From Elusimicrobiota bacterium (GTDB lineage: Bacteria; Elusimicrobiota; Endomicrobiia; Endomicrobiales; JAPLKN01): a stretch of 33,789 nt of DNA. The stretch covers positions 1 through 33,789 of the forward strand of contig JAPLKN010000149.1 of NCBI GenBank assembly GCA_026388075.1, given 5' to 3'. The notes beneath the pieces are model-generated. The model did no database searches and was not told the origin of the DNA. It saw only the letters and a program-made list of their open reading frames with translations. Shown one piece after another: positions 2 to 33,789 of this stretch. The translations under genes and the position numbers were made by a program. Numbering within the stretch: the stretch's first letter is position 1; the number at the start of each line of letters is the position of its first letter.

Positions 2-1561
2 TTAAGAAAAAAAATAATTAACGCGCTTACCGAAAAGGGGGAACTAACCGGCTCTGAATTATTCGCAATGAATTCCGGCCAAAAAAATGTATTGCTTGGC
101 TTAGAAGATGAAAAACTCTATCTGGAAAACATCTTGAGGCTTTCAAGCTTGGATGTTTTAAAGCCGGAAATGAGTTCTTCCATTTCAAAAATAAATGCTA
201 TTTCTGAAGTCCTGAGGAAAAGGTATTTTACCAGAAAAAACAACGCATTTTTTAAATTGTTATCTCAAATCAAAAATCACAAGATTTCACAAGAAAAATT
301 CTACTCTCTCCTTATTAGAAAGGCCCAAAAGTATGGCCTTCCAATCTATGATTATCCTCAATTGGTCCAATTCATAAATCTATTGAAAATTGAAAGAAAT
401 ATTAATTTCAGGGCTGTTAACCGCGAAATGGGTGTTTTCATCAAGGACATTAAATCAAGACTTCCATACAAAGTGTATTCAGAATTGATTAAAAACACTG
501 ATAATTCAAACTGTTTTACAGAATTTGCTTTAAAAATACCTGAACTCAATAATCAATATAACCTTAATATTGAAAAAAGATTCAAAAATCTATCACTTTT
601 TATCGATTTTATCCGACAAAAACAAAAAATTAACCTGATTTTCTTGCTTGATGACGAACGCTCTTTGATAAGGGAACTTCAAAGCACTTTTTCACAAAGT
701 GAGGCCGAAAGAGAGGTCGTTTTTCTTGTAAGTTTTATTGACTATATTGAGGAATTTTTTGAGAATAAAATCTCTCCAAAGGGATATGATTTTTTCAATA
801 CAAATTTCAAAAAATTCTGTCTTCTTTGGGACAAATATTCAAGCAGACAGGACCTAGAAGAAGTTATTAAATATCATTCATTATTCAACGTATTTCACAA
901 AACTAATATTGAAAGAAATATCACTTTTTTGAAAAAAATCCTTGGTTCAAATCCAACAAAAATTTATAGTAATATCAAATTAATTCCAAAAGTAGACCAC
1001 GTAAGCCTTTTGCTAAATTCTTTAAATGATAAGGACAAAGAAATCATAGCCGTGGTTGCGGGGGGATTTCATACCGAAGGATTAAAAGATCTTCTTGAAA
1101 AAGAAAAAGTTTCATATCTCATAATAACTCCCTGCATAAAAGGTTCAACAGAATTTTCAGAAAAAAAATATCTGGCTTTAATAGAACATCAGTCAAAAAT
1201 TATCAGAAACGCGCTTTCCGAAATTATTGGAAACCAATCTATCCGCATAGCAAAAACTCCGGAAACCCTTCTCTCCGCAATTATCTCCCACGATAAATTC
1301 CAAACTATCATTGAAACTCTTCTTTCCAATGAGGAACCACAAAAAATTACAAACGACTTAAACGCCTTTCTAGCAAATGTTGTTTCCGACGCTCAAACAA
1401 ATGGAAAGTTAAAATTCGTAGATAAAATTGAATTTAAATTAGTTGATATTAAATCAAAAACACTCTCACTGATTATTACAGACAAAAACGGCCTTCAATT
1501 CTCTAAACAGTTTTCCCTTGACGAAATGCTGGCCCATAATAAAGCTGAATCTAAGCCTTCT
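2..1561 (+). other. Helical segment with GGFHTEG motif (domain of the giant protein)
   Basis: The first 520 residues are mostly charged, helix-forming and rich in Lys, Asn, Phe and Ile, with no membrane segment. Around 1,052-1,084 the sequence reads VVAGGFHTEGL, followed about 13 residues later by SYLIITPCI. This hydrophobic strand, Gly-Gly-Phe-His turn and second strand look like the core of a Rossmann-like alpha/beta fold. I recall the same GGFHTEG...SY.VITP pattern from other large Omnitrophota proteins, but I know no assigned function. The His at 1,070 and Glu at 1,076 could be functional residues (inference). Residues before 1,000 resemble no family I recognise. Confidence 0.4.
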
Positions 1562-4500
1562 CTCCTCAGCGAAAACAATCCATTCATAGTTGCCCTTGAA
1601 GCAGTATCAAACAGCAGTCTTGCACAGGAGCTCAGCAACCTAATAATTAGCGAAGGTTACGACGGCACAATACCACAAACAATCCCTGAATGGCTTAATG
1701 TTCTTCAAAAGTATTCAATTGCTGTGGTGTTTGGAATACGAAAGCTTTTCGGCCAGAATATCTTAGCAGGGCAAGGGAGCTATCGAAATGAATGCCAGGT
1801 AATCGAGGCGAAGGCACAAAGCATAACGGGTATTCAGCCAGAGGTTAAGGTGAGCGATAACCCTGCTCTTATTCAAAAAGACGGAAGAGCGCTTGCTACA
1901 ATAAAATACAGTAAAAAGGAAAGCAAATACATAATATATGTTCACAAAGCATTCTTTGAGATGATCAAGAACAAAGACCCGGCTGAACAGAAAGAGCTTT
2001 TTGAAGAGTTAGCAATACATGAGCTATTAGAGTATTACGCGCTTTACAAAGATAATGAAGACATATACATTGGATATACGGAGTACTTAAGACAAGGCAA
2101 ACACCTAGACCAACCTAAGACACTAACCCAGCAAGAAATAGAATCCGCAAGAAACAGCGAAAACTTCCATAAATATCTCGGATATCTGTATTATGAGGTA
2201 TTAAGCAATAGGCAATCAAGCCTGTTGCCTGAAGAACAAAGATCAATACGAACAATCAACTTTAAGGTTCAGGATAAACTTCAAAAAATACTTAAATGGG
2301 TTTGGGTAGAACAGGAACTTGAGAAATTGGCACAGAATGATGAAGTTGAACACGGCATGGTAACTCAATTAAGCAAGACAGGGAAAGAATATAGAGACAT
2401 GCTGAAAGGGATATTTGAAGATGCGGGTGTGATTAAAGCTGACGGAGAAACGGTTGCTAATGCGATAGCGAAAATGAGGCCGGGGAGTATACGGCTTATG
2501 GCGATACTCGGAGTAATAGATGAAGAAGAAATGGAACTACTTGGCGGGGATGAAGAAAGAATAGACGAACAATTGTCTACACCAGAGAAGACGCAAGAAT
2601 TGAGGCAGAGGTATGAATCGCGGATAGAACGGTTTGGGCAGTACCCTCAAGCAAAGAAAGAAAGATTAGCAATAAAAATAAAGGAATTAGTTGACAGATA
2701 CAATACAGAACATTATGGTAGCGAAGAGAAAAAGATGTACAAGATACGGTTGATATTGCCTGAATCGCTTGAATATTTTATGAATAAATACAGTTTATCA
2801 AGGGCTCAGGTTTATCCAATTATTTTAGATGAAAATGAGTATTTCATATGGTTTAAGAAAGCAGCGGCGAAGGCGGTCGAGATACGGCAGAAGTATCCGG
2901 AAATATCAGAATCTAAAGCGTGGCGGATAGTGAGGATGCAAGGGGTAGACGATGCGCATAGTGTAGCCGAGGCAATGAAAGCGAAGGTGACAGAAATACT
3001 GCAAAAGTATCCAGAAATTTCGGAACATAATGCGTGGCAGATAGTAATGGGGCAGGGGGTAGAGAAAGCTCTGAGTGTAGCCGGGGAAATGAAAGCGAAA
3101 GTGGCAGAGATACGGCAGAGGTATCCGGAAATTTCAGAATCTTTTGCTTGGATGATATTGATAGGGAATGGAGTAGACAATGCTCTTAGTTTGGCGGGGG
3201 CGATGAAAGCGAAGGTGACAGAGATACGGCAGAAATATCCTGAAATAACAGAGACTCATGCCTGGACGATAGTGATAGCGCATAAAGTAGACAATGCGCT
3301 TAGTATAGCTGGGGCGATGAAAGCGAAGGTGACAGAGATACGGCAAAAGTATCCAGAAATGACGAAAACTCATGCCTGGCAGATAGTGATAGGGTGGAGA
3401 GTAGACGATACGCTTAATGTAGCTGGGGCAATGAAAGCGAAGGTGCCAGAGATACGGCAAAAGTATCCGGAAATATCAGAATCTTTTGCGTGGCGGATAG
3501 TGATGGTGTGGGGAGTAGACGATGTGCTTAGTACAGCTGGGGCGATGAAAGCGAAGGTGGCAGAGACACGGCAAAAGTATCCGGAAATATCAGAATATAA
3601 TGCGTGGCTGATAGTGACAAAGATGGAGATAAGTAAAATAGATGAATGGATAATGAAAGCAAAACCGGAAGTGGATAAAATATTTGCGATAAACGGAAAT
3701 AATATAAATTCTGCCTGGAATGACGTAATAAACCATTCGTTATTTACTGAAGAAGACGAGGAGTTTTTTAATGGTTTTGATCAACGTACCGGCAAACCAA
3801 CAACCCTGGCTGAAAACTCTCCTTTTATTGTTGCCCTCGGGGCAGTATCAAACAACAGTTTTGCAACCCAGTTAAGCAACTTGATAATTAAAGAAGGTTA
3901 CAAAGGCGCAATACCTCAGACAATTCCTGAATGGCTGAATGTACTTCAAAAATATTCAATAGCCGTGGTGTTCGGAATACGAAAGCTTTTCGGTCAGAAT
4001 ATTTTAGCAGGGCAAGGGAACTATGGAAAGGAATGCCAGGTAATAGAAACAAAGGCACAAAGCATAACAGGTGTTCAGACAGAAGTTAAGGTAAGCGATA
4101 ACCCGGCTCTTATACAAAAAGACGGAAGAGCACTTGCAACAATAAGATACAGTGATAAGGAAGGTAAATACATAATATACGTTCACAAAGCATTCTTTGA
4201 GATGATAAAGAATAAAGATCCGGCTGAACAGAAAGAGCTTTTGGAAGAATTAACAATACATGAGTTATTAGAGTATTACGCGCTTTACAAAGATAATGAA
4301 GACATATACATTGGATATACGGAGTACTTAAGACAAGGTAAACACCTAGACCAACCTAAAACACTAACCCCCCAAGAGATAGAATCCGAAAGAAACAGCG
4401 AGAATTTCCACAAATATCTTGGATATCTGTATTATGAGGTACTAAGCAAGAGACAATCAAGCCTATTGCCTGAAGAACAGAGAGTTCTTCAAGTCATTAA

Positions 4501-7500
4501 TCCTGAAATTGAGGACAAACTGCAAAAAATACTTAAATGGGCATGGGTTGATCAAGAGCTTGAGAAATTGGCGCAGGATGAAGAGATAGAATACGGCATG
4601 GTAACTATATTAAGCGAGACAGGGGAAACATACAGGGATATGCTGAAAGAGATATTTGAAGATGCGGGTGTGATTAAAGCTGACGGAGAAACGGTTGCCA
4701 ATGCTATAGCGAAAATGAGGCCTGGCAGTATACATCTTATGGCAATACTCGGCGTAATAAATGAAGAAGAGATGGAGTTGCTAGGCGGGTATGAAGAGAG
4801 AATTGACAAACAATTATCTGAAAAAGGGAGAAAGCAGAAATTAAGGCAGAGGTACGAAGCTCGGATAGAAAGATTTGAGCAGTACCCTGCTGAAAAAAAG
4901 GAGACATTGGCAACAAAAATAAAGGAATTGGTTGACAGATACAATACTGAGCATTATAGTTCCTCCGAGAAAAATATGTATAAGAAGCGGTTGATTTTGC
5001 CAGAGTCGCTTGAATATTTTATGAACAAATTTGGTCTATCAAGAACTTTCGTTTATCAAATTATTGGGGGCCAAAACGAATTTTTTGTCTGGTTTAATAA
5101 AGCGGCAGAAACAGTTGTTCAGATAATGACGCAGTATCCTGAAATAAACAAAAGGAATGCCTGGAGAATAGTGATTGGGCAGGGGGCTGAAAACGCGCTG
5201 ACTGCTGCCGGTGAGATGAGCGCGAAAGTAACGGAGATAATTAGTCAGTATCCTGAAATAACGAAAACTTATGCCTGGGAAATAGTGATTATGCGGGGAG
5301 CAGAAAACGCGCTGGCTGTTGCCGGTGAAATGAGCGCAAAAGTAACGGAGATAATTAGGCAGTATACTGAAATAACAAAAGGTAATGCCTGGGAAATAGT
5401 GATTAAGCAGGGGGCCGAAAACGCGCTGACTGTTGTTGGTGAGATGAGCGCAAAAGTACCTGAGATAATTAGGCAGTATCCAGAAATAACGAAAAGTAAT
5501 GCCTGGGGAATAGTGATTATGCGAGGAGCAGAAAACGCGCTGGCTGTTGCCGGTGAAATGAGCGCAAAAGTACCTGAGATAATTAGTCTATATCCTGAAA
5601 TAACGAAAAGTAATGCCTGGATATTAGTGCTCAAGCAGGGAGTGAGTGGAGCGAATGAATGGATAAGAAGAGCAAGACCGGAAGTAGATAAAATATTTGC
5701 AGTAAACGGAAATAATATAAATTCTGCCTGGTTTGATGTAATAGAGCATTCATTATTTGCTGACGAGGACGAAGAATTTCTCAATAATTTTGACCAACGA
5801 ACCGGTGAAACGACAACCCTCGGCGAAAACAATCCTTTCGTAGTTGCCCTTGAAGCTGTATCAAACAACAGTTTTGCAACCCAGCTTAGCAACTTAATAA
5901 TTAAGGAAGGTTATCTCGGTGCAATACCGCAAACAATTCCTGAATGGCTGAATGTTCTTCAAAAGTATTCAATAGCTGTGGTGTTTGGAATACGTAAGCT
6001 TTTCGGCCAGAATATTTTAGCAGGCCAGGGAAAATATGGAAATGAATGTAAAGTTATTGAGACAAAGGCGCAAAGCATAACTGGTGTTCAGGCAGAAGTC
6101 AGGGTAAGCGATAATCCAGCTCTGATACAAAAAGACGGAAGAGCACTTGCAACGATAAGATACAGTGAAAAGGAAAGCAAATACATAATATACGTTCATA
6201 AAGCATTCTTTGAAATGATCAAGAACAAAGACCCGGCAGAACAGAAAGAACTTTTGGAAGAGTTAGCAATACATGAGCTATTAGAGTATTACGCGCTCTA
6301 CAAAGATAATGAAGACATATACATTGGATATACGGAGTACTTAAGACAAGGTAAACACCTAGACCAACCTAAAACACTAACCCCCCAAGAGATAGAATCC
6401 GCAAGAACCAGCGAGAACTTCCACAAATATCTTGAATATCTGTATTATGAAGTACTAAGCCACAGACAATCCGCCCTGTTGCCGAAAGAACAGAGAGTAA
6501 TACAAATAATTAATTTTAAAACTCAGGACAAGTTATTCAAAATTCTAAAATGGGTTTGGGTAGATCAAGAACTTGAGAAATTAGCGAAGGATGACGAGAT
6601 TGAATATGGAATGGTGAATAATTTAAATAAGGTCGGGAAAGAATACAAGGAAAATCTTAAGGAGCTATTAACTTCTTTCGGTTTGCAAGAAGATCTTGCT
6701 GAAAAAGCGGCTAATACCATTGCAAAGATGAGCTCTGGAGACATAAGATTGATGGAAATATTAGGTGAGCTTAACGCAGACGAGGTGGAAGCTCTCGGTG
6801 GCTTTGAGGAAAAAATAGAAAAAGGCTTAAGTGCTAATAATAAAAAGACAAAGTGGCTTGAAAAATATGAAAACAAAATGTCCGATTTTGAACAATTAAG
6901 CCCTGTGGAAAAGGCGGCATTTGCTAATAAAATCAAAGGTCTTATGGACTCATATGAAAATGGCAACTATGCTAAATATGCAAAAGCAGTGTTCAGAAGA
7001 TATCTCATTCGTGCTGACGCTCCCGATTACTTTATGTATAAATACAAGTTACCGAAATCATATGTTTTAATGATACTGGAAAGACATGCGGATTATTGTC
7101 AGTGGTTTAAAGAATTTAAGAGAGTAGAAAAAAGAATTCAACAAAAGAATATTCCTGGTCTAAGTAATAATTATGTGACAGCAATAATTATTGAACATGG
7201 GCTTGAAAATGTTGAAGCCTGGCTTCGGCGGGCAAAGATTACAGTTGATAATATCCTTGCAAAAAATATTCCCGGCATAGGACTTAACAGCGCTTGGGAA
7301 ATAGTCATTCATCATAGTGACGCCGAAAATTGGCTGGAAGAAGCAGGAAAAGTTGCTGAAAGGATAAAGACAAAAAATATACCAGGACTTGCATATGCTT
7401 TAATATGGAGAATCATAACAAGTAAAGGTAAAGAAAAAGCGGAGGCCTGGCTTTTAGAAGCACAAAAAGTCGTAGAAAGAATATTGGCTAAGAATATTCC

Positions 7501-25500: not shown

Positions 25501-28500
25501 TCTAGCGAACGATGTGAAAAAAATAACCGCCGCAGGAATGTTATGGCTGTCTATAAATCAAGATGAATCCACCTATAATGCTATAAAGGAATTGTTTCAT
25601 TTCACCGAGACCTGGGTTTCTGGCAGCAGTCCAAGCACGGGTCAGCTTTCCGTGTTGCTTAATATTATCTCATCAGCTGAGTTTTCGTATCCCAAAATAA
25701 CCGATGAGCAAACAGCTGAAGAAATTGTAAATAACCTGGTTGAACTTGAAGGGCTTCTGTCAACTATTAATAGCCTGAGTTATGAGGTGAAAGTATTCTT
25801 TGGCCTGATACCGCGTAACGTAAGCGGTCTTAATGCCCTAAATACGGCCTGCGGAACAAACTGGGACGGCAGCTTAGCGACACTCACGCTGGATCAGATA
25901 TCGCAGTTTTATGAAACGTTTTTTATTCAAAACGCCTGGGCGTCGCACGATGCCGTTCTTCAGAATGGCGCCGAAATGTACGGTGCGCGTACCTTGGCGT
26001 GGGTTCATAACGTAGAAAATATCACGGTACTAGCTGCTATATCTACTTTCGTTATCTTGGCCGTCATATCTTTTCATAAACATCGCGTTAAAATCCATAA
26101 AGCAATAAAGAAACTGGTTAATTTCGTCTCTAATAAAATAGAAAAAGCAAAAAACGGTATTAAGAAGTATAAGTTGCTCATTATTAATTACATACAAAAC
26201 TTAAAGAATAGAACAAATATCAAGTTTCAGTTAAACAATGTTGAAAAATTGGGAGAAATACTGAGCGCCTATCCTATAGATGACATTGACAATGCAGCTA
26301 CTGCAATCAAAAATAGTTTTGAAGGCGTTTATCAAAAGTTAAAACGGTATTTAAAAGATAGTTTTCAACAGGATAAAGTGACAACAGAAATAATCGCAGA
26401 AGTGCTGTTTCTGTCAAAAGACAGGGAACAGGCGCTGGCAAAAGCCTTGCTGGACATATATACCTACCCGAGCGGCATGGATAAAGAAGTGCTAATTAAC
26501 AGTTTCTCTGGTTTATACGCGCAACTAGATGCGCAAGAGAAAAAACAGTGGGAACAAATTGCGGTATTTTTTCTAGAAAATATCGCCGATACAATATTAC
26601 GGAGACAAATAGCAAGCAAATTTGTGCAAGTAATGCTGATTAAAACTGGTCCCGGCAATGTAAAAGAATTTGATGTTCAACAAGCATATACATTTTTAGA
26701 AAAAATTCTTGAAATACAAGGCGGAACTGTTTCAAGTCACGAAATATTTAAGAATGTACTAAATGAAACCTTTGCCGTTGCTGATACGGAACAGCTTAAA
26801 ATAAACCTGGCTGAAAATATCAAAACTATGTTTCAAGACGCTAAAAACCAGCCTGCTAAGAAAAAGTCATCCAAATTAGACAAGAAAACCATGCTCAATA
26901 CTCTTCAGGAATTGTATTCGGCCGATGACACATCCGAAATCAACCGTAGTCTGATTATCCTGATAACAAAAACTTTGCTGCAAATTTTCGGCGAAAACGA
27001 TAAGGAATTTATTAAAAATGCAAGTGATTTTCTTGCCGGAAACATTCCTGAAAGCAATTTTCTAGCCGTTGATCCTCGCTCTATTGAACGGCTTCTAAAG
27101 ACTGCCAATGAATTGGCCGAGGATAATGAAACTCTTGCATTCGCGATTATCTTATATAGGGCAATGAAAAATCCTAAAGAAAATCAAGAGCTTATTGATA
27201 CATTTTATTCTGGCATTTACCCCGACAAAAAGCTCCCCTTTATACAGGCATTTGTCATAAATATAATAAACCAAGCTCAATCTAAAGACCAAAATAAAAG
27301 AAGAGATAATCTGAATCAACTGTTCTCTCTGCTTGATAAAGAACCGCCGGAAGATTTTTATTTTAATATTTTATACCAATTATACGAAAAAATTGATAGT
27401 CCGCAGCTAAAAAATACTGTTTTAACGAAAATAAAAACAAATATTCCTGATTTAGCTCAGCAGAAATCCCAAGATATAAGCAGCCTATTGAAATACTATA
27501 TACTTTTTAAAGGCGGCATGGGTTTTATTACTACAAAAAATTTGGAAGAAATCTATGGCTTGCTCTCTGAGATTTTTGGAATCCCTCCCGTATCAGATGA
27601 ACACACAAAATTTATCATTAAACTTATCTCTTATACGTGTGATGTAGCAGAAACCTCTGATGAAAAATATTTGGTTTCCAAACAAATCGGGGCATACTTC
27701 GTCAATTTACTAAGTGATGGGAAAAACGAGGAATTTATAATTGATTTATTCAGAAATGATGAGGTCTTCAAACAGATAATTTTAAGTATTATTTCTTTTA
27801 TAGTTAAAAATGATCCGGAATCAACAGCGCTGGTCCTCAACAAATTTATAAATTCTTTTCTGTTTTTTGTATATCGCGATCAGCACGAGAAAGTAAAACC
27901 GGGCGTAAAATTAACGCAGTCCTTAGTTGCTTTATCTCAAAAATTGTCAGCCGGATGTGATATTGATCAGGAAATAATAATCTTTGAAAAAATTACCGAC
28001 ATACTCCTGAGTTACGCAAAAACCGAAAAGGAAAAAGAAGTATATTTAAATCTAGCTAAATACGCATTTCTGCTTGCAAAATATAGTAATCCGAATCTCC
28101 AAGAATACGCAAATATACCGAAATTACAATCTCAAATACAACAAAATGAGCAAATAGTTTTAACTCAGGAAAATATTGGGATCATTTTAACTGAAGTACT
28201 TCGCGAACTAAAACATAATGTTAATGAAAGAATAAACATTAATGAAATTATAGAAAATACCCATCAGGGGCTCGCGCTTATCCATCCTCTTGCCAAATGG
28301 GTTCAAGATAATCCTAAACGCTTGCCTGTAGCCGTTGCAGTAGAAGAGCTAATTTATGGTTTTGCTCTTCAGCTTTTGTTTGAGTTTCTAATTTTTTTGA
28401 TTCCCGGTATATCTTTGGTATTAAATCCGATAGCAATCAAAGCAATCGCCCTTATAATTTGCAGCTATATTTTCGGCGTTTCGCACCAAACCTTATATTT

Positions 28501-31500
28501 CCGCGACAAGGATGGAAATATAATTGAAAGGGGAAAAGCAACGCCGTTTGACAGACTTGTCCGCTTCCCACTGCTTGGAATGGCTTTTAGGATACTAAAC
28601 ATTATCCCAGGCCTTCCCGTGGGATCATTCCTTGCCCTGGCGTTCCCAGCCCATCTCGGCTACGACCGTATCCCAGGCGTTCCCCTAGCAACAATAGGAG
28701 AAAACAAAGTTTCTCCTCAAGATTTCGCAAAAATTCTTGAAGATAGCAAACTTATGCAATTTGATAAAAATGCCGAAGATTTTGTTATTGACGAATCTAG
28801 AAATTCATTAAACTGCTGGAATTTAGGTTACATTAAAGTGGCTCTAGAATTGCCCAGCATTCTGAATTTCTTTGACACATATGACGATGCTAAAAAAACT
28901 TTACTTAATAAATTTATCGCGCAAGTTCTTGATTTATCCAAAAATTGTTCAAGTATTGATGAGATTTCAAAATATTTTGGTCTGGGTCCTAACAATTTTC
29001 ACAATCTCTTGAATAAATATAAAATTCGAGTTCCAATAAATAACAAACTATCATTAGACGAAGTCAAACAAATAATTGAATCAAACATCAAAAAGGATGC
29101 CCAGGGAAATGTAGAAGGCATAAATATTTCTGCGATTAAAAAAGAGTTATTTGGCAAAGACTTTACTCTCTATAGAACCTTATTTAGAATTTACGGTGGA
29201 ACACCTGTGTTTGGCACCACATTTACTGAATTGTTTAAGACATTTCTAAAAACCAAAGCCAAGAATGACGTTCTTGTTCTGACGCCGAAAATTGCGCTTG
29301 ATCTAGGATTTTTAACTCCAGAAGGCAACGGTTCTACTCAGCCGGCTTTATTAACCTTACAATCTCTTGACAAAGAATTTATTGGTGTTACAATTCAAAA
29401 AAGGCCTTCTATAGAAGCAAAAAAAATAATTGAATCTAACATCAAAAAGAATTCCAAAGGCGGAATAGAAAGTATAAATTTATTTTCGATAAAAGCAGAA
29501 CTATTAGGCAAAAAAAGAAATTCCTATAATACCTTATTCAAAGTTTATGGCAGAATACCGGTGCTCGGATCTACATTCTCTGAAATGTTTAAGGCGTATC
29601 TCAAAACCAAAGCCAAAAATGATGTTCTTATTGTAACGCCAGAAATTGCGTTTAATCTTGGATTTTTAACGTCAACTGGTACTGGCTTTACTAAAACAGC
29701 ATTATTAGCTTTACAATCCCTAGGCGAAGAAGTTACCGGTATAAAGATTTTGAAACAATTGCAGATAACACCTCATTATGAAACGCTTATTACTCCTCTT
29801 GCCAAATGGGTTCAAGGCAATCCGAAAAGAATGCCTTACGCTATTGCGATTGAAGAATTGATCTATGGTTTTGCACTTCAGTTATTGTTCGAGTTTCTTC
29901 TTTCTTTGATTCCCGGTATATCTTTGGTATTAAATCCGATTGTAATCAAAGCAATAGCCCTTATAATCAGCAGTTATATTTTCGGTGTTTCGCACCAAAC
30001 CTTATATTTCCGCGACAAGGCTGGAAACATAGTTGAAAGGGGAAAAGCGACACCGTTTGATAAATTTGTCCGATTCCCGTTTCTTGGAATGGCTTTCAGG
30101 ATACTAAATATCGTCCCCGGCCTACCCGTCGGATCGTTCCTTGCTTTGGCTTTTCCTTCGCACCTCGGCTACGACCATATCCCCGGCGTTCCACTGGCGA
30201 TAATAGGAGAAAACAAAGTTTCTACTCAGGATTTCGCAAAAATTCTTGAAGATAGCAAACTTATGCAATTTGATAAAAATGCCGAAGATTTTGTTATTGA
30301 CGAATCTAGAAATTCATTAAACTGCTGGAATTTGGGTTACATTAAAGTAACTCTGGGGTTACCCAGCACCTTTAATTTTTTTGATGAGTACGACGATACT
30401 CAAAAAACCTTACTTGAAGAATTTACCACCCAAGTCTTTGATATATGCAAATATTGTTCAAGTATTGATGAAATTTCAAAATATTTTGGTCTGGATCCTG
30501 CTATTTTTCGCGACATCTTGAAAAAATATAAAATTCGACTCCCAATAAATAATAACCACAGTAAAGCAGAAGCTGGTCATATTAGTGATAAGGCAAAATT
30601 ATTGCAAAAAAATGCAAAACAAATAATTGAATCGTACATCATAAAGAATGCCGAAGGGAATATAGAAAGTATAAATTTGTTTTTGATAAAAAAAGAGCTG
30701 TTGGGCAAAAACAATAACTCCTACAAATTTTTATTTAGTATCTATGGCAGAACTCCTGTGCTAGGATCCACATTCGCTGAAGTTTTTAAGGTTTACCTTA
30801 AGGCCAAAACTGAAAATGGTGTTCTTGTTATGACTCCCAAAACCGCACATAGTCTCGGTTTTAGAACATCTAAAGGTACTGCTTATACTCAATTAACATT
30901 ATCGGTTTTACAAAATCTCGGCAAAGAATTTACCGGCGTTACGCTACAAAAAAGACTTCCGCAAATAAAATCAGATAAAATTATTGGGCCAAAGATTAAG
31001 ACGGGTACAAAAAATAAGGAGAAGTTTATTGGCATTATAATTCAAGAAAAACTTCCGCATAAAAAACTGCGCGTAAAAGCTAAAAAGGATTTTATCGTTA
31101 ATGAGCTCCTAGAGAAAATGCCTGAAGAAGAAGCAAAAAAGATTATCGAATCTAACATTAAAATTAATGACAAAGGTGAAATAGAAAATATAAACTTATT
31201 TGCGATAAGAAGAGACATTTCTGGCAAAAACTACGTCGTTTATAAGACCTTATTTAAAATTTATGGGAAAATTCCGGTGCAAGGATCTACATTTGCTGAA
31301 GTGTTTAAAGTTTATCTTAAAACTAAAGCTGAAAACAGCGTTCTTGTTGTAACCCCAAAAACCGCATTTGATCTCGGTTTTAGAACACCAACTGGTAATG
31401 GTCTTGATTATCCTGCATTATTAGTTTTACAATCTCTCGGTGAAGAAATTACCGGCGTTACAATACAAGCAAGACCTCCTAAAAAGAAAATAGATAAAAC

Positions 31501-33789
31501 AAATACTAAAAATAAAAAGGAATTTGCCGGTAAAGAGCTTCTAGAGAAAATGCCAGAAGAAGAAGCAAAAAAGATTATCGAATCAAATATCAAAAATGTC
31601 AATGGCAAAGTTGAAAGTATAGACTTGTTTTTGATAAAAAAAGCCCTATTAGGTACAAATAAGCGCCTTTATAGAACCCTTTTTAGTATTTACGGCGAAA
31701 CGCCTGTGTTTGGTACCACATTTGCTGAATTGTTTAAAACATATCTCAAAACCAAAGCCGAAGACGGTGCTCTTACCATAACACAGGAAAATGCATTTAG
31801 TCTCGGTTTTTTTACTTCAATTGGTACTGGTTCTACTCATCCCGCTCTGCAAGTCTTACAATCTCTCGGCAAAGAAATTACCGGCGTTACAATTCAAGAA
31901 AAACTAATTGAAGAAGAAGCAAAAAAGATTATCGAATCAAATATCAAAAATGTCAATGGCAAAGTTGAAAACATAAACTTGTTTTTGATGAAAAAAGAAT
32001 TGTTTAAAAGAGGTACTGCTTCCTATGAAGCCCTATTTGGAATTTATGGCGAAACACCTGTTTTTGATACCACATTTCTAAAATTGTTTAAAGCATATCT
32101 TAAAACTAAAGCTGAAAATGGTGTTCTTGTCTTAACGCCGGAAATTGCGCTCAACCTCCGATTTAGCATAAATAACGATATTGCTTATGCTCTATCAACC
32201 TTACAATCTCTCGGCAAAGAATTTATTGGCGTTACAATTCAAGAAAAGCTTTCAGAAGAAAAAGCAAAGAAAATAATTGAATCAAACATTAAAACGTATG
32301 CTAATGGGAAAATAAAAGGCATAAATATTTTTGCGATTAAAATAGGATTATTTGGTATAAACCAAACTTCTTACTTAACTCTATTTAGAACTTATGGTAA
32401 AACGCCCGTGCTCGGTTCTACATTTGCTGAATTGTTTAAGGTATATCTTAAAACCAAAGCCAAAAATGGTGTGCTTGCTATGACGCACGAAATCGCGTTT
32501 GATCTTGGCTTGATAAGACCGGGGATAACTTCTGCCGATTCAGCAATATCAATCTTACAAATTCTCGGCCAAGAATTTACCGGCGTTACAATTCAAGAAA
32601 AACTGCCTGAAGAAAAAGCAAAAAAGATTATTGAGTCCAATATCAAAAGAAAGGCCGGAGGCGAAACAGAAAGAATAAATATTTTTGCTATAAAAAAAGC
32701 GTTATGTAGCAGAAATCGCACTTCTTACATAACTTTATTTAATATTTATGGTGGAACACCTGTTTTTGGCACCACCTTTGCTGAATTGTTTAAGGCATTT
32801 CTTAAAACCAAAGCTGAAAATGGGGATCTTGTTGTTACACGAGAAATCGCTCTTAATCTCGGGTTTAGAAAACCAAATGGTACTCCTTCTGCTCAAACAG
32901 CTTTATCAGCTTTACAAAATCTCAACAATGAATTTTTGGGAATTACGATCTTAGACAATTCTCAAAAAATATCGAATCCCGCTGCAGCTCTAATTACTCC
33001 TCTTGCCAAATGGGTTCAAGAAAATCCCAAACGTCTACCTGTTGCCGTGGCGATTGAAGAACTTATTTATGGTTTTGCTCTTCAGCTTTTATTCGAGTTT
33101 CTGCTTTCTTTAATTCCAGGTATATCTTTGGTATTAAATCCGATGGCAATCAAGGCAATAGCTCTTGTAATCAGTAGTTATGTTTTCGGCGTTTCACATC
33201 AAACCTTATATTTCCGCGACAAGGCTGGAAACATTATTGAAAGGGGAAAAGCGACACCGTTTGATAAATTTGTCCGATTCCCGTTTCTTGGAATGCTTTT
33301 TAGGATACTAAACATTATCCCATGCCTTCCTGTTGGATCCTTCCTTGCCCTGGCGTTTCCGTTGCATCTTGGCTATGATCATGTTCCAGATGTTCCGCTT
33401 GCGATGACAAATGTATCCATTAACAAAACGACTTTAAAAGACCTTGATAAAGAAGAATTCTTAAGAATTCTTGAGGAAAGCAAAGGATTTGTTTTTGATT
33501 CTGATAAAAAGGTTTATATTGAAAGCGACGAACAAAAGGCAAAGAATTGCTGGAATCTCGGATACATGAGAAACAAATATCTTGAAATCTATGAATACAA
33601 TATATCTGATTATTTAAAAATTCTTGAAGCTTTCGATAAGAAATTACCAGAATCATCTCTTATTGAACAGCTAAAACAAATGATATTTGAAAGACTAAAA
33701 ATAAATAATGATTCCACAAAATTAACGGCCGAAGATTTTGGAGTTTCTCATAACACTTTAGAAGTTATGATCCGTAAATTCCAAAAAAG
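2..33789 (+). CDS. Giant multidomain membrane protein, interior fragment (no start or stop in window)
   Basis: One reading frame with no in-frame stop covers the whole window, giving at least 11,262 residues; both ends run off. Independent motifs far apart all lie in the same phase, so there is no frameshift: VVAGGFHTEGL near 1,052, an SNF2 Walker A near 14,072, HExxH at 19,259, a SecA-like Walker A at 20,483 and the last repeats near 33,700. The standard genetic code suffices. Domains in order are duplicated helical-repeat modules, a CPBP-like membrane module, HTH-like repeats, an SNF2 helicase, a second CPBP-like module, a zincin, a third CPBP-like module, a SecA-like ATPase, a polytopic membrane region, an extracytoplasmic domain, a helical region, and three CPBP-like modules interleaved with repeats. 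The combination resembles the giant proteins described from Omnitrophota. Function is unknown; an envelope-spanning machine used in attachment, transport or predation is inference. The open frame is seen directly; that it is expressed as one chain is assumed. Confidence 0.95.
1562..3802 (+). repeat. Long duplicated module A, copy 1
   Basis: First of three paralogous modules in the same protein. It opens with ENNPFIVALEAVSN, continues with IPEWLNVLQKYSIAVVFGIR, a strand-rich stretch ending IIYVHKAFFEM, then AIHELLEYYALYKD (2,012-2,053), and ends its constant half with LILPESLEYFMNKYSLS near 2,755-2,800. A variable array of 38-residue helical repeats follows (2,870-3,640), then an acidic cap, TEEDEEFFNGFDQRTG. 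The HELLE sequence at 2,018-2,032 sits where a zincin HExxH would be but has Glu in place of the second His. The distance to copy 2 is 2,241 bp, measured at the Pro codon of the NNPF/NSPF motif. Function is unknown. Confidence 0.85.
2870..3640 (+). repeat. Tandem 38-residue repeat array (7 units, exact 114-bp period)
   Basis: Seven head-to-tail units with consensus KVxEIRQKYPEISExxAW, then xIVIGxGVDNALSVAGAMKA. The repeated Tyr codon falls at 2894, 3008, 3122, 3236, 3350, 3464 and 3578, exactly 114 bp apart each time, with no insertion or deletion. Each unit predicts as two short helices, so the array probably forms a superhelical solenoid like other alpha-alpha repeats (inference). The DNA itself is highly similar between units, which suggests recent expansion by slippage or unequal recombination. 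Most substitutions fall just after the PEISE motif and after AW, as expected of a variable ligand-facing surface. Confidence 0.9.
4286..4388 (+). repeat. 103-bp perfect direct repeat between module A copies 2 and 3
   Basis: Bases 4,286-4,388 are identical to 6,299-6,401. Copy 1 (about 2,057-2,159) differs at only a few positions. They encode YKDNEDIYIGYTEYLRQGKH and the following PKTLTPQEIES. Absence of silent changes over this length means recent duplication or gene conversion. Confidence 0.8.
5111..5640 (+). repeat. Tandem 38-residue repeat array (5 units, exact 114-bp period)
   Basis: Five units with consensus KVTEIIxQYPEITKSNAW, then xIVIxxGAENALAVAGEMSA. The repeated Tyr codon lies at 5135, 5249, 5363, 5477 and 5591, again exactly 114 bp apart. 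The fold is clearly the same as the array in copy 1, but the units resemble each other more than those of copy 1 (RQKYPEIS versus I.QYPEIT). The arrays were therefore homogenised separately after the modules duplicated (inference). Confidence 0.9.
5819..8200 (+). repeat. Long duplicated module A, copy 3 (diverged second half)
   Basis: Third copy, opening GENNPFVVALEAVSNNSF. It matches copies 1 and 2 closely until about 6,430, then diverges while keeping recognisable landmarks: WVWVDQELEKLAKDDEIEYGMV near 6,550, and YFMYKYKLPKSYV near 7,030 in place of YFMNKYSLSRAQV. Its repeat array (7,120-8,150) is of a related but different 39-residue type. It ends in an acidic linker, DESPDSDLDPEA, leading into the first membrane module. 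The HELLEYY sequence is retained near 6,272-6,292. Confidence 0.8.
7120..8150 (+). repeat. Tandem 39-residue repeat array (8-9 units, mostly 117-bp period)
   Basis: Units with consensus AKNIPGLxxxxAWxIIIxxG, then KEKAEAWLEEAKxVAERI. The codon before the conserved Pro position falls near 7151, 7268, 7379, 7496, 7613, 7730, 7847 and 7964. Spacings are 117 bp except one of 111 bp; a degenerate last unit starts near 8,084. The pattern is the same AW...I(V/I)...G...A as in the two 38-residue arrays, so this is a diverged version with one extra residue per unit. Two-helix solenoid units are likely. Unlike the other arrays, the units here differ strongly at the DNA level, so the array looks older. 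Confidence 0.85.
8200..8690 (+). other. CPBP/CAAX-protease-like membrane module, type II copy 1
   Basis: After ALIPRYGKQV comes SLEQAAQKEENLFSRN (Glu-Glu at 8,294-8,299), then hydrophobic helices SLIIESVFIAIWLLTTFGL and WIHILVVIIAHYAAYL, FGMAH at 8,453-8,467, FRLFGLLPIPII, and HITYN at 8,633-8,647. CPBP (ABI) glutamic intramembrane proteases are defined by EExxxR, FxxxH and HxxxN/D motifs set in membrane helices. Here FxxxH and HxxxN are intact, and the first motif is EE with the Arg one residue late (EENLFSR). All six such modules in this protein keep the second and third motifs, which argues for a real relationship. Activity is uncertain because motif 1 is altered. The module would cross the membrane two to four times. 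Confidence 0.6.
8700..11740 (+). repeat. Eight tandem ~120-140-residue repeats with Fis-like HTH pattern
   Basis: Each unit starts near AAQxVEIIPEDLMETxQKLIDLG. The Gln codon is at 8741, 9107, 9497, 9917, 10280, 10664, 11030 and 11411. It continues with NDFKYLRILxSHIVYAxxHS, then a segment such as NWGATANLLGSQPFQIKQII (11,228-11,287) and KYLAKHxDLKLDxI. The stretch HIVYAL..S...AA.LLG....L..II..F follows the spacing of the Fis/NtrC C-terminal helix-turn-helix (AL...GN...AA..LG.....L...I). This is resemblance by eye, not a profile hit. Unit length varies from 121 to 140 residues through indels in the linker after LIDLG and in the charged QREQxKFEAA helix. The array immediately precedes the region carrying the SNF2 domain, so a DNA-contacting array is possible. 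A purely structural helical repeat is the alternative. Confidence 0.8.
11741..13420 (+). repeat. Three units with (C/V)(W/S)NL(G/T) motif
   Basis: Three diverged units each begin with (D/S)ITYxxxLxxxExSKKY near 11,747, 12,541 and 13,066. Each continues about 20-30 residues later with a Tyr-rich segment leading to NVWNLTY (near 11,858), PCWNLGC (near 12,650) and NCSNLGY (near 13,169). Helical segments follow that again look HTH-like, for example SIEKAFGLTKKVFQEI near 13,336. Three further units of the same family lie at 28,700, 30,205 and 33,430, where the motif is NCWNLGY. I do not recognise the family. The pairing of a small Trp/Cys-containing domain with a following HTH-like segment is consistent across copies. 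Confidence 0.6.
13421..13960 (+). other. Charged helical linker before the SNF2 domain
   Basis: About 180 residues without a recognised domain. They include a Lys/Arg patch (KKGSKRSPRKR near 13,424), a predicted helix pair around FSDFIKILEGQNLTEVLMVL, an acidic, Gln-rich spacer (SGSEEQQKPEETTEN, 13,622-13,666) and a long helix running into the helicase. The spacer composition fits a flexible interdomain hinge. Nothing else is apparent. Confidence 0.5.
13961..15450 (+). other. SNF2-family helicase/translocase domain
   Basis: Superfamily 2 ATPase with SNF2 order of motifs. The Q-like motif is MLYPHQRYAAWFM at 13,979-14,017. Motif I is DTRLGKT at 14,072-14,092 (compare DEMGLGKT). Motif II is VVDEGQ with DEGQ at 14,387-14,398. 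Motif III is SATPFTN from 14,489. The second RecA lobe has KGIIFARN near 15,000, and motifs V-VI are INVSVGIGLDLSSAEWVLFSQL from about 15,263, then QNSDR at 15,353-15,367. SNF2 proteins translocate on double-stranded DNA using ATP. Motif II is DEGQ rather than DEAH/DEGH, and the last motif keeps QxxDR but lacks the following Arg of the usual DRxxRIGQ, so coupling of hydrolysis may be weakened. The location is presumably cytoplasmic, between membrane modules at 8.2 and 17.8 kb. It lies in the same chain as a SecA-like ATPase, which is unusual. Confidence 0.85.
15451..17190 (+). other. Long helical region, no recognised family
   Basis: About 580 residues of amphipathic helices with no membrane segment and no conserved catalytic motif that I can identify. 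Segments such as KPAVLLSLAKIVQHFANSD, LTLIVPKLLRLLDEKN and TVLINILKDCLQTKESK give the impression of HEAT/ARM-like helical hairpins without a fixed period. A predicted coiled coil rich in Glu and Leu lies around 16,920-17,080 (EEALAELEQEKETLVAQL, then ERSLVEEELHKINLRIAI). It probably acts as a scaffold between the helicase and the next domain (inference). Confidence 0.45.
17191..17785 (+). other. Unrecognised alpha/beta domain with C-F-N-L motif
   Basis: The segment after 17,215 alternates strands and turns, unlike the helical regions around it: GMFNPDMVNCFNLSSKARQV, then MLAIVRVNGKIRSAAMVKVR, PVFLVKRPIF and TDVYHNAYVLFAPL. The pattern of Cys before a short loop, a conserved Asn-Lys, a strand with V-N-G-K and a second strand A-A-M-V-K-V recalls an acetyltransferase-like or similar small alpha/beta fold seen in large bacterial proteins. 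I cannot name the family and no catalytic triad is evident. A Gly-rich STGARGP loop lies near 17,612. It ends directly before the second type II membrane module. Confidence 0.35.
17785..18235 (+). other. CPBP/CAAX-protease-like membrane module, type II copy 2
   Basis: Close paralogue of the module at 8,200. The same lead-in (ALIPRYGKQV, GKKGISLEQAAQKEENLFAR) has Glu-Glu at 17,867-17,872. Helices IFIVLESILSIVWFAAT and WMHIVVSLILAHYTAFL follow, then FVMAH at 18,029-18,043, GFRLFGLLPIPIIPALI, and HKKYN at 18,209-18,223. FxxxH and HxxxN of CPBP proteases are conserved; motif 1 is EENLFAR, with the Arg shifted by one. Similarity to copy 1 is high in the helices and in the loop KLSF(V/M)RKG(I/M)GFRLFGLLPIPII, and it vanishes after HxxxN, which fixes the module's end. 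Confidence 0.6.
18236..19100 (+). other. Helical region upstream of the zincin motif
   Basis: About 290 residues of soluble helices (for example EASLTLVKKLSEEIKTKI and KAFEIFLILVRKPISSVG), with regular helix-turn-helix spacing that suggests an armadillo/HEAT-type scaffold. No catalytic motif or membrane helix is seen. It connects the second type II membrane module to the metalloprotease-like domain. Confidence 0.4.
19101..19620 (+). other. Zincin-type metalloprotease-like domain (HEMDH)
   Basis: The helix TKESLLQTIVHEMDHLTQKY carries HEMDH at 19,259-19,273, a canonical HExxH zinc-binding and catalytic motif with the expected hydrophobic residue before His and Leu-Thr after it. A short strand-like segment, GAYRIFLGDETV, precedes it, as in many zincins where a strand edges the active site. 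A candidate third ligand is the Glu at 19,484 in YFTESRHIAARGF, about 70 residues downstream, or the Glu in DLAVFEFSKRF near 19,376-19,408. The family cannot be named. HExxH can occur by chance, but the position in a helix and the E.RH..AR segment downstream favour a real metalloprotease fold. Substrate unknown. Confidence 0.55.
19850..20260 (+). other. CPBP/CAAX-protease-like membrane module, type I copy 1
   Basis: The module reads PLAKWVQGNPKRLP, then EELIYGFALQLLFEFLLSL (Glu-Glu at 19,922-19,927), IPGISLVLNPIAIKAIALI, YIFGVSH with FGVSH at 20,051-20,065, the hydrophilic loop KKGNIIEGRKATPFDK, FRILNIIPGLPIGSFLAWAF and HFIYD at 20,231-20,245. FxxxH and HxxxD match CPBP motifs 2 and 3. Motif 1, usually EELLFRG, reads EELIYGF, so the Arg is missing while both Glu residues remain. 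Spacing between the motifs is the same in all four type I copies. It sits immediately N-terminal to the SecA-like ATPase and would tether it to the membrane. Confidence 0.6.
20330..22850 (+). other. SecA-like DEAD ATPase (divergent preprotein translocase motor)
   Basis: Motifs follow SecA order and wording. An upstream helix, QVKTAELLINGQKKKVAWCL, parallels the SecA Q(L/I).GG..L..G.IAEM.TGEGKT segment. Motif I is AGGGKT at 20,483-20,500. Motif II is LLIDEGDNVL with DEGD at 20,861-20,872 (SecA IVDEVDSIL). A SecA-like GIATATP lies near 21,407-21,427 (SecA GMTGTA). Motif V is NNRGRSGFT around 21,983-22,009 (SecA MAGRGTDI). Motif VI is EEKHEQDEIQFGCRAGRN, ending about 22,108 (SecA ERHESRRIDNQLRGRAGRQ). 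SecA drives unfolded proteins across the membrane. Helices follow to 22,850, corresponding in place to the SecA scaffold, but no C-terminal zinc finger is seen. The chain then enters about a dozen membrane helices, so the motor is fused to its own membrane part. Confidence 0.85.
22900..24085 (+). other. Polytopic membrane region (about 11-13 helices)
   Basis: Dense series of hydrophobic segments: LMLIGVAVIPSAAIIFGGLG, then WILPATLGPLGLILGALAII, MLAGAIGSIIIGLSLGI, PILALIALALFGIMI, IAGILISAISIYGYATALLL, GILIGGILALFSTFALFVI, SGYAFYFILNALLF, MLVSYVAILSVIGLAIGA, VPVFIIGLLVAIFLVEIG, LLIGLIIAIPVVIAAAGV and LLGLFALMPGVGQAFI. Basic loops (KKSGQSLKAVK, IPKKKLN, TIRRPIDE) fit the positive-inside rule for the cytoplasmic side. 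I see no homology to SecY by motif. Its place directly after the SecA-like motor suggests a fused channel or anchor (inference). Confidence 0.75.
24086..26017 (+). other. Probable extracytoplasmic domain
   Basis: About 640 residues between the last helix of the polytopic region and the single membrane helix at 26,018. Composition differs sharply from the rest of the protein: rich in Asn, Thr, Ser, Tyr and Gly, poor in Lys, starting with the Pro/Gly/Asn-rich linker NPADGSVPGQNNPYNTSPLG. The few cysteines lie in this region (CNLRWGLNQCEQVFGGC near 24,442-24,490, YCKEV near 24,695, TACGTNW near 25,845) and could form disulphides. The strongly basic stretch after the 26,018 helix marks that side as cytoplasmic, so this part should face outward. 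No fold recognised; it contains both helix-like and strand-like stretches. An adhesion or substrate-binding role is inference. Confidence 0.55.
26018..26077 (+). other. Single transmembrane helix with basic cytoplasmic flank
   Basis: The segment ITVLAAISTFVILAVISF is followed at once by HKHRVKIHKAIKKLVNF and NKIEKAKNGIKKYK, a textbook stop-transfer arrangement under the positive-inside rule. It fixes the orientation of the preceding domain (outside) and the following region (inside). Confidence 0.8.
26080..28270 (+). other. Long cytoplasmic-looking helical region
   Basis: About 730 residues of soluble helices with no membrane segment or catalytic motif found. Recurring helical hairpins such as EIIAEVLFLSKDREQALAKA, NRSLIILITKTLLQIFGEND and TLAFAIILYRAMKNPKENQE suggest a TPR/HEAT-like scaffold without strict period. 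A Lys-rich stretch, QPAKKKSSKLDKK, at about 26,851-26,890 may be a flexible linker. The region ends at the second type I membrane module. Confidence 0.45.
28274..28690 (+). other. CPBP/CAAX-protease-like membrane module, type I copy 2
   Basis: Paralogue of the 19,850 module. The lead-in is HPLAKWVQDNPKRLP, with EELIYGFALQLLFEFL (Glu-Glu 28,343-28,348), FGVSH at 28,472-28,486, loop DKDGNIIERGKATPFDR, FRILNIIPGLPVGSFLALAF and HLGYD at 28,652-28,666. It has the same missing Arg in motif 1 and the same intact FxxxH and HxxxD as the other type I copies. It is followed directly by a WNLGY unit, a pairing also found in copies 3 and 4. Confidence 0.6.
28700..29040 (+). repeat. WNLGY unit after type I copy 2
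   Basis: The unit reads QDFAKILEDSKLMQFDKNAE, then FVIDESRNSLNCWNLGY (near 28,784-28,834), a helical linker, then SIDEISKYFGLGPNNFHNLL (28,957-29,016), which has the spacing of an HTH. It is nearly identical to the unit at 30,205; 104 consecutive bases match exactly (28,721-28,824 and 30,230-30,333). Same family as the three units at 11.7-13.4 kb. Function unknown. Confidence 0.65.
28721..28824 (+). repeat. 104-bp perfect direct repeat between WNLGY units
   Basis: Bases 28,721-28,824 match 30,230-30,333 exactly, with silent and non-silent differences starting on both sides. The distance of 1,509 bp equals one membrane module, one WNLGY unit and two Repeat C units, so a block of this size was probably duplicated in tandem. 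Confidence 0.8.
29041..29785 (+). repeat. Repeat C, copies 1-2 (~118-residue units)
   Basis: Two tandem units begin with VKQIIESNIK and AKKIIESNIK; the Glu codon of IIES is at 29,078 and 29,432, 354 bp apart. Each then has GxxEgInxxxIKxEL, TLFxIYGxxPVxGxTFxExFKxxL and KTKAKNDVL. It ends with TPEIAxxLGFLTxxGxGxT and ALLxLQSL, a helix pair that looks like a winged helix-turn-helix (A..LGF.......AL..L..LG). The array is then interrupted by the third type I membrane module and a WNLGY unit before resuming at 30,600. Confidence 0.8.
29786..30204 (+). other. CPBP/CAAX-protease-like membrane module, type I copy 3
   Basis: Membrane module with TPLAKWVQGNPKRMP, EELIYGFALQLLFEFL (Glu-Glu 29,852-29,857), FGVSH at 29,981-29,995, loop DKAGNIVERGKATPFDKFVR and HLGYD at 30,161-30,175. 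Its DNA is very close to copies 2 and 4, including a run of almost 60 identical bases with copy 4 in the loop after FxxxH, so these copies arose or were homogenised recently. It breaks into the Repeat C array, showing that membrane module plus WNLGY unit moves as one block. Confidence 0.6.
30205..30570 (+). repeat. WNLGY unit after type I copy 3
   Basis: Near-duplicate of the unit at 28,700: the same QDFAKILEDSKLMQFDKNAE and NCWNLGYIKV, diverging only after the motif, then SIDEISKYFGLDPAIFRDIL, again with HTH spacing. It ends in RLPINN, as copy 2 ends in RVPINN, which marks the unit boundary. Confidence 0.65.
30580..32965 (+). repeat. Repeat C, copies 3-8 (~115-144-residue units)
   Basis: Six further units. 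The Glu codon of IIES (or the equivalent) is at 30,629, 31,148, 31,580, 31,934, 32,279 and 32,633. Units 5-8 are packed at 354, 345 and 354 bp, while units 3-4 carry extra Lys-rich linkers (QARPPKKKIDKTNTKNKKE near 31,466-31,522). The core is stable: LFxIYGxTPVxGTTFAELFK, YLKTKAENGVLVxTPxxAF, LGFxTxxGTxxxxxAL, LQSLGKEFTGVTIQ. The second half follows a winged-helix pattern by eye; the conserved aromatic YG-TPV-G segment has no parallel I can name. Seven of the eight copies end with GVTIQ or GVTLQ or a close variant. Confidence 0.85.
32980..33404 (+). other. CPBP/CAAX-protease-like membrane module, type I copy 4
   Basis: Last membrane module: TPLAKWVQENPKRLP, EELIYGFALQLLFEFL (Glu-Glu 33,056-33,061), FGVSH at 33,185-33,199, loop DKAGNIIERGKATPFDKFVR and HLGYD at 33,365-33,379. 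Motif 1 again lacks Arg. It follows the end of the Repeat C array and precedes another WNLGY unit, the same order as copies 2 and 3. Confidence 0.6.
33405..33789 (+). repeat. WNLGY unit after type I copy 4, cut by window end
   Basis: The unit has EEFLRILEESKGFVFDSDKK, then NCWNLGYMRN (33,545-33,577), helices, and TAEDFGVSHNTLEVMIRKF with HTH spacing near 33,726-33,781. More diverged than the two preceding copies. The frame is open through the final base, so the protein continues beyond the window. Confidence 0.65.

Follow-up and report, generated by a model that had tools for sequence, protein, structure and literature searches.

The DNA analysed here, a stretch of 33,789 nucleotides (hereinafter referred to as the window), makes up the whole of contig C149 in a MAG assigned to Endomicrobiales (Elusimicrobiota), which comprises 2.14 Mb in 167 contigs and is 95% complete. 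No genome of the same family was found among 60 relatives searched, so the source represents its own family-level lineage within Endomicrobiales. A single frame on the plus strand was open from base 2 to base 33787, and a six-frame count over the whole window found no stop in its 11,262 codons, which agrees with the preliminary description of this DNA, where the frame beginning at base 2 was said to lack stops across 33.8 kb. The other five frames contained 386-1,031 stops each, with a longest open stretch of 213 codons. About 810 stops per frame were predicted by the base composition of the window (ln P about -841), and open runs in 50 shuffled window sequences reached at most 176 codons.

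Codon-position composition was coding-like from end to end of the window, and the frame never changed; G+C was higher at position 1 than at position 2, and purines made up 0.58-0.70 of position 1. The strongest argument for translation comes from within the ORF, namely from selection on its repeats. In a self-comparison, dN/dS between internal repeat copies was 0.09-0.16 (codons 535-2,230 and 6,625-11,135). The differences between copies were chiefly synonymous or at third positions, indicating protein-level evolution of the frame where it is repeated. For codons 535-2,230 and for the copies of the membrane module this is direct support; the regions between them rest on the open frame and homology. 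Together with the domain matches described below, these data bear out the earlier view of a single continuous, motif-bearing coding frame, and it is very probable that the window ORF is one real gene.

Both ends of the gene had been reported to lie out of view. This holds for the window itself but not for the gene, whose 5' continuation was found on another contig of the assembly (C26, L009:8302-8833). The last 26 bases of C26 are the first 26 bases of the window, with matching frame. When the corresponding domain of a paralog (C157) was used as reference, residues 18-146 were covered by C26 and residues 140-545 by the window; because these are consecutive parts of the domain, the join is continuous at the protein level as well. 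As a nucleotide link, the 26-base overlap is weaker than usual, since another contig pair in the same assembly overlaps by 141 bases. C26 carries a hydrophobic Sec-type signal ending in SSSVHA, followed by the first third of the N-terminal domain. Upstream of the signal, back to the preceding stop (C26:8302), there was no in-frame ATG, and TTG codons on C26 are candidate starts. DNA and protein searches of the assembly for a 3' continuation returned the window alone and no further contig; the 3' end of this copy lies outside the assembly, and the C-terminal tail of the family is described below from relatives. The window lies wholly inside one giant ORF, whose protein comprises at least about 11,400 aa. 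The features recognised in the window are listed in Table 1.

Table 1. Features of the giant ORF, in window coordinates.
Feature	Position	Strand	Remarks
C-terminal two thirds of N-terminal domain	2..1231	+	terminates with VVAGGFHTEG plus a short strand-helix
Long tandem repeat unit A	1550..3790	+	HELLEYY domain, helical part, ~38-aa repeats; compared with unit B, dN/dS about 0.15 (self-comparison)
Long tandem repeat unit B	3791..5812	+	82% DNA identity with unit A
Long tandem repeat unit C	5813..8173	+	second half diverging; conserved part with DNA 85% identical to unit A
Membrane module copy 1	8207..8683	+	divergent, FGMAH
About eight ~122-aa tandem repeats	8684..11701	+	self-comparison
SNF2-like helicase core	14045..15370	+	SNF2-rel_dom 2.4e-14, Helicase_C 0.0028; RLGKT, DEGQ, SATPF, DRSLGF
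Membrane module copy 2	17786..18262	+	divergent, FVMAH
HEXXH motif HEMDH	19259..19273	+	putative zinc metalloprotease-like domain; surrounding domain recurs in a giant on C145
Membrane module copy 3	19853..20254	+	EELIYG...FGVSH...H..YD, CPBP-protease-like motif order
Divergent SecA-like ATPase module	20282..22321	+	Walker A GGGKT, IDEGD, HWPAGLQQAV, QFGCRAGR
About 10 clustered transmembrane segments (predicted)	22913..24028	+	after the SecA-like module; matching region in the G002 giant
Membrane module copy 4	28271..28681	+	self-comparison
~115-aa tandem repeat series	29009..32971	+	broken by membrane module copy 5
Membrane module copy 5	29783..30190	+	self-comparison
Membrane module copy 6	32987..33394	+	self-comparison

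The N-terminal domain (hereinafter the head domain) is ~490 aa long and lies behind the signal sequence. In the window gene, it is made up of the C26 part, with the signal peptide and the first ~146 residues, and window codons 1-410, the junction resting on the 26-base overlap. An alignment of 66 head-domain sequences contained 13 invariant columns. Sequence searches with the head domain gave no NCBIfam or PDB match. Its Pfam matches were dropped as sub-threshold and mutually discordant, and weak Pfam matches to GCR1_C, TelK_muzzle, mTERF, and Mre11_C_bact were discarded for their weakness.

An AlphaFold model built from the 66 sequences reached a mean pLDDT of 87.9 and superseded a weaker one from 8 sequences. 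In a fold search of 350,542 chains, EreC, 3b55/2rad, and ChaN, which we take to be members of one superfamily, were within the top 50, and none of these matches was significant; the best match to the EreA/ChaN superfamily had E 0.085 and TM 0.14-0.16. By eye, the order of H, E, and H at strand ends is similar to that of EreA/ChaN (TIKI/TraB-like) proteins. However, the head domain contains a large helical insertion, and its TM score is below 0.2 against most of these proteins. A search of a viral structure library with the head domain gave coiled-coil-type matches alone.

Hydropathy, the sole basis for this count, gave 27 candidate transmembrane segments in the window protein. Four of the six membrane modules, each ~135 aa, are spread over codons 6,618-11,131. 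The order EE...FxxxH...HxxxD inside membrane segments, reminiscent of CPBP/Rce1 proteases, was seen in four of the six modules. No Pfam match was obtained for the modules up to E 10, the CPBP/Rce1 family profile included, and their identification as CPBP proteases was not retained, being a resemblance of motif order without profile support. The domain surrounding the HEXXH motif gave a SprT-like match alone, which was sub-threshold.

Two ATPase-like parts were recognised in the window protein. The match of the first to SNF2-rel_dom (53.6 bits) was over the Pfam cut-off of 24.9, and that to Helicase_C (18.3 bits) was under its cut-off of 23.5. Weak matches of this part to the defence protein DpdE were read as general helicase similarity. 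The second, the SecA-like module, matched SecA_DEAD above the Pfam cut-off (2.4e-06) and SecA_PP_bind just under it (9e-04). It is common to giants on C126 and in G002, with the motor motifs kept, and also aligns with the housekeeping SecA. A first scan of the contigs, made with the SecA-like part, was negative for relatives; relatives were found by a scan with the N-terminal alignment. The housekeeping SecA is encoded by a separate 883-aa ORF (C16, 445 bits), and the window module is not that SecA. The module retains GGGKT, a DE-type Walker B, the RW..LH..VE stretch, and the Q.R.GR motif of SecA; unlike SecA, it is very divergent, lies inside a giant protein, and is followed by about 10 membrane segments. 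None of the domains recognised in the window belongs to an adhesin, lectin, glycosidase, peptidoglycan hydrolase, or carbohydrate-binding family.

The head domain matched 13 places in the source genome, at no fewer than 10 giant loci. The giant on C158 is an ORF of 8,463 codons with start and stop, and those on C107 and C157 are open from end to end, as in the window. ORFs joined to the family by head or tail total about 194 kb, corresponding to 9% of the assembly. Domains of the LOG, HAD, ABC1-kinase-like, and TIM-barrel types were found in other giants of the genome. The giant on C107 (L010) contains two LOG/SLOG-type (lysine decarboxylase-like) domains at residues 1296-1681, next to which a nucleotidyltransferase-like stretch was recognised by eye.

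In a sample of the phylum, the head domain was matched in 64 of 295 genomes, and the strong matches were nearly all in Endomicrobiales. Its named relatives all belong to Elusimicrobiota, chiefly to Endomicrobium, Endomicrobiellum, Ruminimicrobiellum, and further Endomicrobiales. The longest head-bearing ORFs elsewhere in the order have 11,814, 11,689, and 11,603 codons, and five other Endomicrobiales families contributed complete ORFs with start and stop (8,305-11,814 codons), located on contigs 31-433 kb long.

Intact relatives share a C-terminal tail, [KR]xIL[GSA]AA-COOH, for which no description was found in the literature searched. An A[AG] end was present in 12 of the 18 head-bearing relatives with a stop inside the DNA examined, compared with 4 of 302 other ORFs. 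These four look like distal pieces of giants: three run off the start of their stretch, and one follows an interrupted giant. The six head-bearing exceptions are mostly short or interrupted copies, one of which ends in LLACA. The last two residues served to pick 29 tail-bearing ends, drawn from six families and holding at least one gene twice (G004_C28 and L138); L occupied position -4 in 24 of them, I position -5 in 18, and K/R position -7 in 19.

Prc is a tail-reading protease that degrades SsrA-tagged proteins (PMC6686036). The tail of the giants may resemble the substrates of such proteases, an analogy offered as a lead only; the source genome contains one S41-type peptidase. A tmRNA is encoded on contig C75 (C75:823-1205, L197), with a tag ending in LPLAA that is faintly like the giants' tail. 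The register of the two differs, and equating them was rejected except as a lead.

On sequence grounds, then, the window gene belongs to an order-wide, multicopy family of giants composed of a predicted signal peptide, a ~490-aa head, and, in intact relatives, a shared tail. The preliminary description was right about a continuous, motif-bearing frame and missed this family, its N-terminal domain, its C-terminal tail, and most of the domain content. At 33.8 kb in the window alone, the ORF exceeds the 20 kb by which bacterial giant genes are delimited, and the 27 candidate segments agree, at the level of hydropathy, with the multiple transmembrane helices also expected of them. West-Roberts et al. 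in 2023 reportedly found most full-length giants to carry divergent SecA DEAD domains. The gene is of a known kind by its size, and, if that is so, by its SecA domain too.

The size of the protein had been regarded as nearly without precedent, which does not hold as worded. The Omnitrophota giant of Velamenicoccus archaeovorus has 39,678 aa with peptide evidence (PMC10066038), predicted giants extend to about 85,800 aa, and Elusimicrobia are reported to have giant genes commonly (PMC12057145, PMC11573180). The window protein resembles Omnitrophota giants in its very long single ORF, predicted membrane helices, and few recognisable domains, and those giants likewise occur in small-genome, often host-associated bacteria from a related part of the tree. 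Giant bacterial genes, those of Omnitrophota included, have been described as poorly conserved (PMC10066038) and as hard to give a role, whereas many Endomicrobiales copies across the order share a head and a tail, with 8-12 thousand aa as the usual upper range. The huge proteins (>5,000 aa) counted in Elusimicrobia surveys are of the same phylum and size class, and the population of the window was probably among those counted; the consulted portions of these surveys give counts and describe no family, head domain, or tail (PMC11573180, PMC12057145). The order-wide head-plus-tail family is new in that no description of it was found in the literature searched.

As to function, we tentatively favour, at slightly less than an even chance, an exported, membrane-anchored giant that is cut by proteases and serves contact with other cells, encoded by one real gene of the order-wide family. 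The N-terminus of the giant would be exported by Sec, and the membrane modules and the cluster of ~10 segments would lodge the chain in the inner membrane. In the predicted topology, the ATP-dependent SNF2- and SecA-like parts would remain cytosolic, and the N-terminal domain and the repeat blocks would face outward. The chain may then be cut by a factor reading the C-terminus, possibly the sole S41-type protease, and/or by the built-in protease-like modules, yielding a product for contact with partner, host, or prey cells. A more specific proposal, which we consider rather unlikely, is an export and processing route for polyproteins of 8-12 thousand aa, in which the common N-terminal domain would serve as the head of every giant, the tail would be an address for a C-terminus-specific factor, and some chains would bring their own SecA-like motor and membrane proteases. 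If true, this would represent a protein-sorting signal not previously described.

The signal peptide, the long repeat blocks, and the numerous membrane segments would also suit a giant extracellular adhesin or a weapon that degrades walls, secreted in full to act at the surface of prey or host, as proposed for Omnitrophota; giants of Omnitrophota and Elusimicrobia have been so interpreted (PMC10066038, PMC12057145). That no adhesin, lectin, glycosidase, or peptidoglycan hydrolase family was recognised in the window makes this doubtful, although it deserves to be kept in mind: the parts recognised there are ATPases, which need ATP, and other giants of the family carry enzymes of cytoplasmic type (LOG, HAD, ABC1 kinase, TIM barrel). 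That largely cytoplasmic-type domain content, with the protease-like HEXXH and membrane modules, is what would be expected of an intracellular or injected polyprotein, in which such enzymes are strung on one chain, freed by proteolysis, and active in a partner cell. The multi-membrane layout fits released cargo poorly, however, and the proteases are identified at the level of motifs, so that a polyprotein of this kind seems quite improbable.

The remaining alternatives concern the state of the locus. A decaying or recombining repeat locus, no longer expressed as a single protein, would account for the in-frame TAA stops or frame changes in the paralogs on C145 and C126 and for the existence of relatives with up to five stops inside the head domain; because of these paralogs, decay or misassembly may affect part of the family. 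The window copy, with zero stops in 33.8 kb and repeats under purifying selection, is very unlikely to be such a relic. Finally, the MAG consists of 167 contigs broken by repeats, and the length of the ORF might reflect separate genes joined in assembly. False joins would not hold one frame through 11,262 codons, and complete ORFs of similar length are present on long contigs in the five other families; an artefact is therefore barely credible.

Giants of the whole order, those of termite and ruminant gut lineages included, can be recognised by their head and, when intact, by their tail. Because head and tail mark its members, the family is countable, traceable in evolution, and testable. It raises the questions of whether the tail controls sorting or cutting, whether the SecA-like part is a motor, and why many genomes of Endomicrobiellum, a genus of intracellular symbionts, are without giants when most other genera have kept them.

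On contig C145 (L213, L063, L064, L194), two giants are each cut once by an in-frame TAA (7987, 47168, near 50370); one of them additionally shows a frame change, and the distal parts of both retain the family tail. Decay, assembly error, and recoding are candidate causes of these interruptions. The giant on C126 (L058) has an N-terminal domain split by one TAA and, in addition, a SecA-like module.

Among the genomes listed, 16 of genus g6, which holds Endomicrobiellum, were without a head match, and most other genera had several. Many reduced symbiont genomes in genus g6 are without the head domain, and some of the copies left there carry stops. The genus holding Endomicrobiellum comprises every flagellate endosymbiont characterised to date (PMC11257099); given this and the genomes lacking a match, giants appear, among the genomes listed, to be often lost in intracellular life. 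In genus g12, one genome assembled as a single contig of 1.6 Mb (G014) had no head match although three further g12 genomes carry several.
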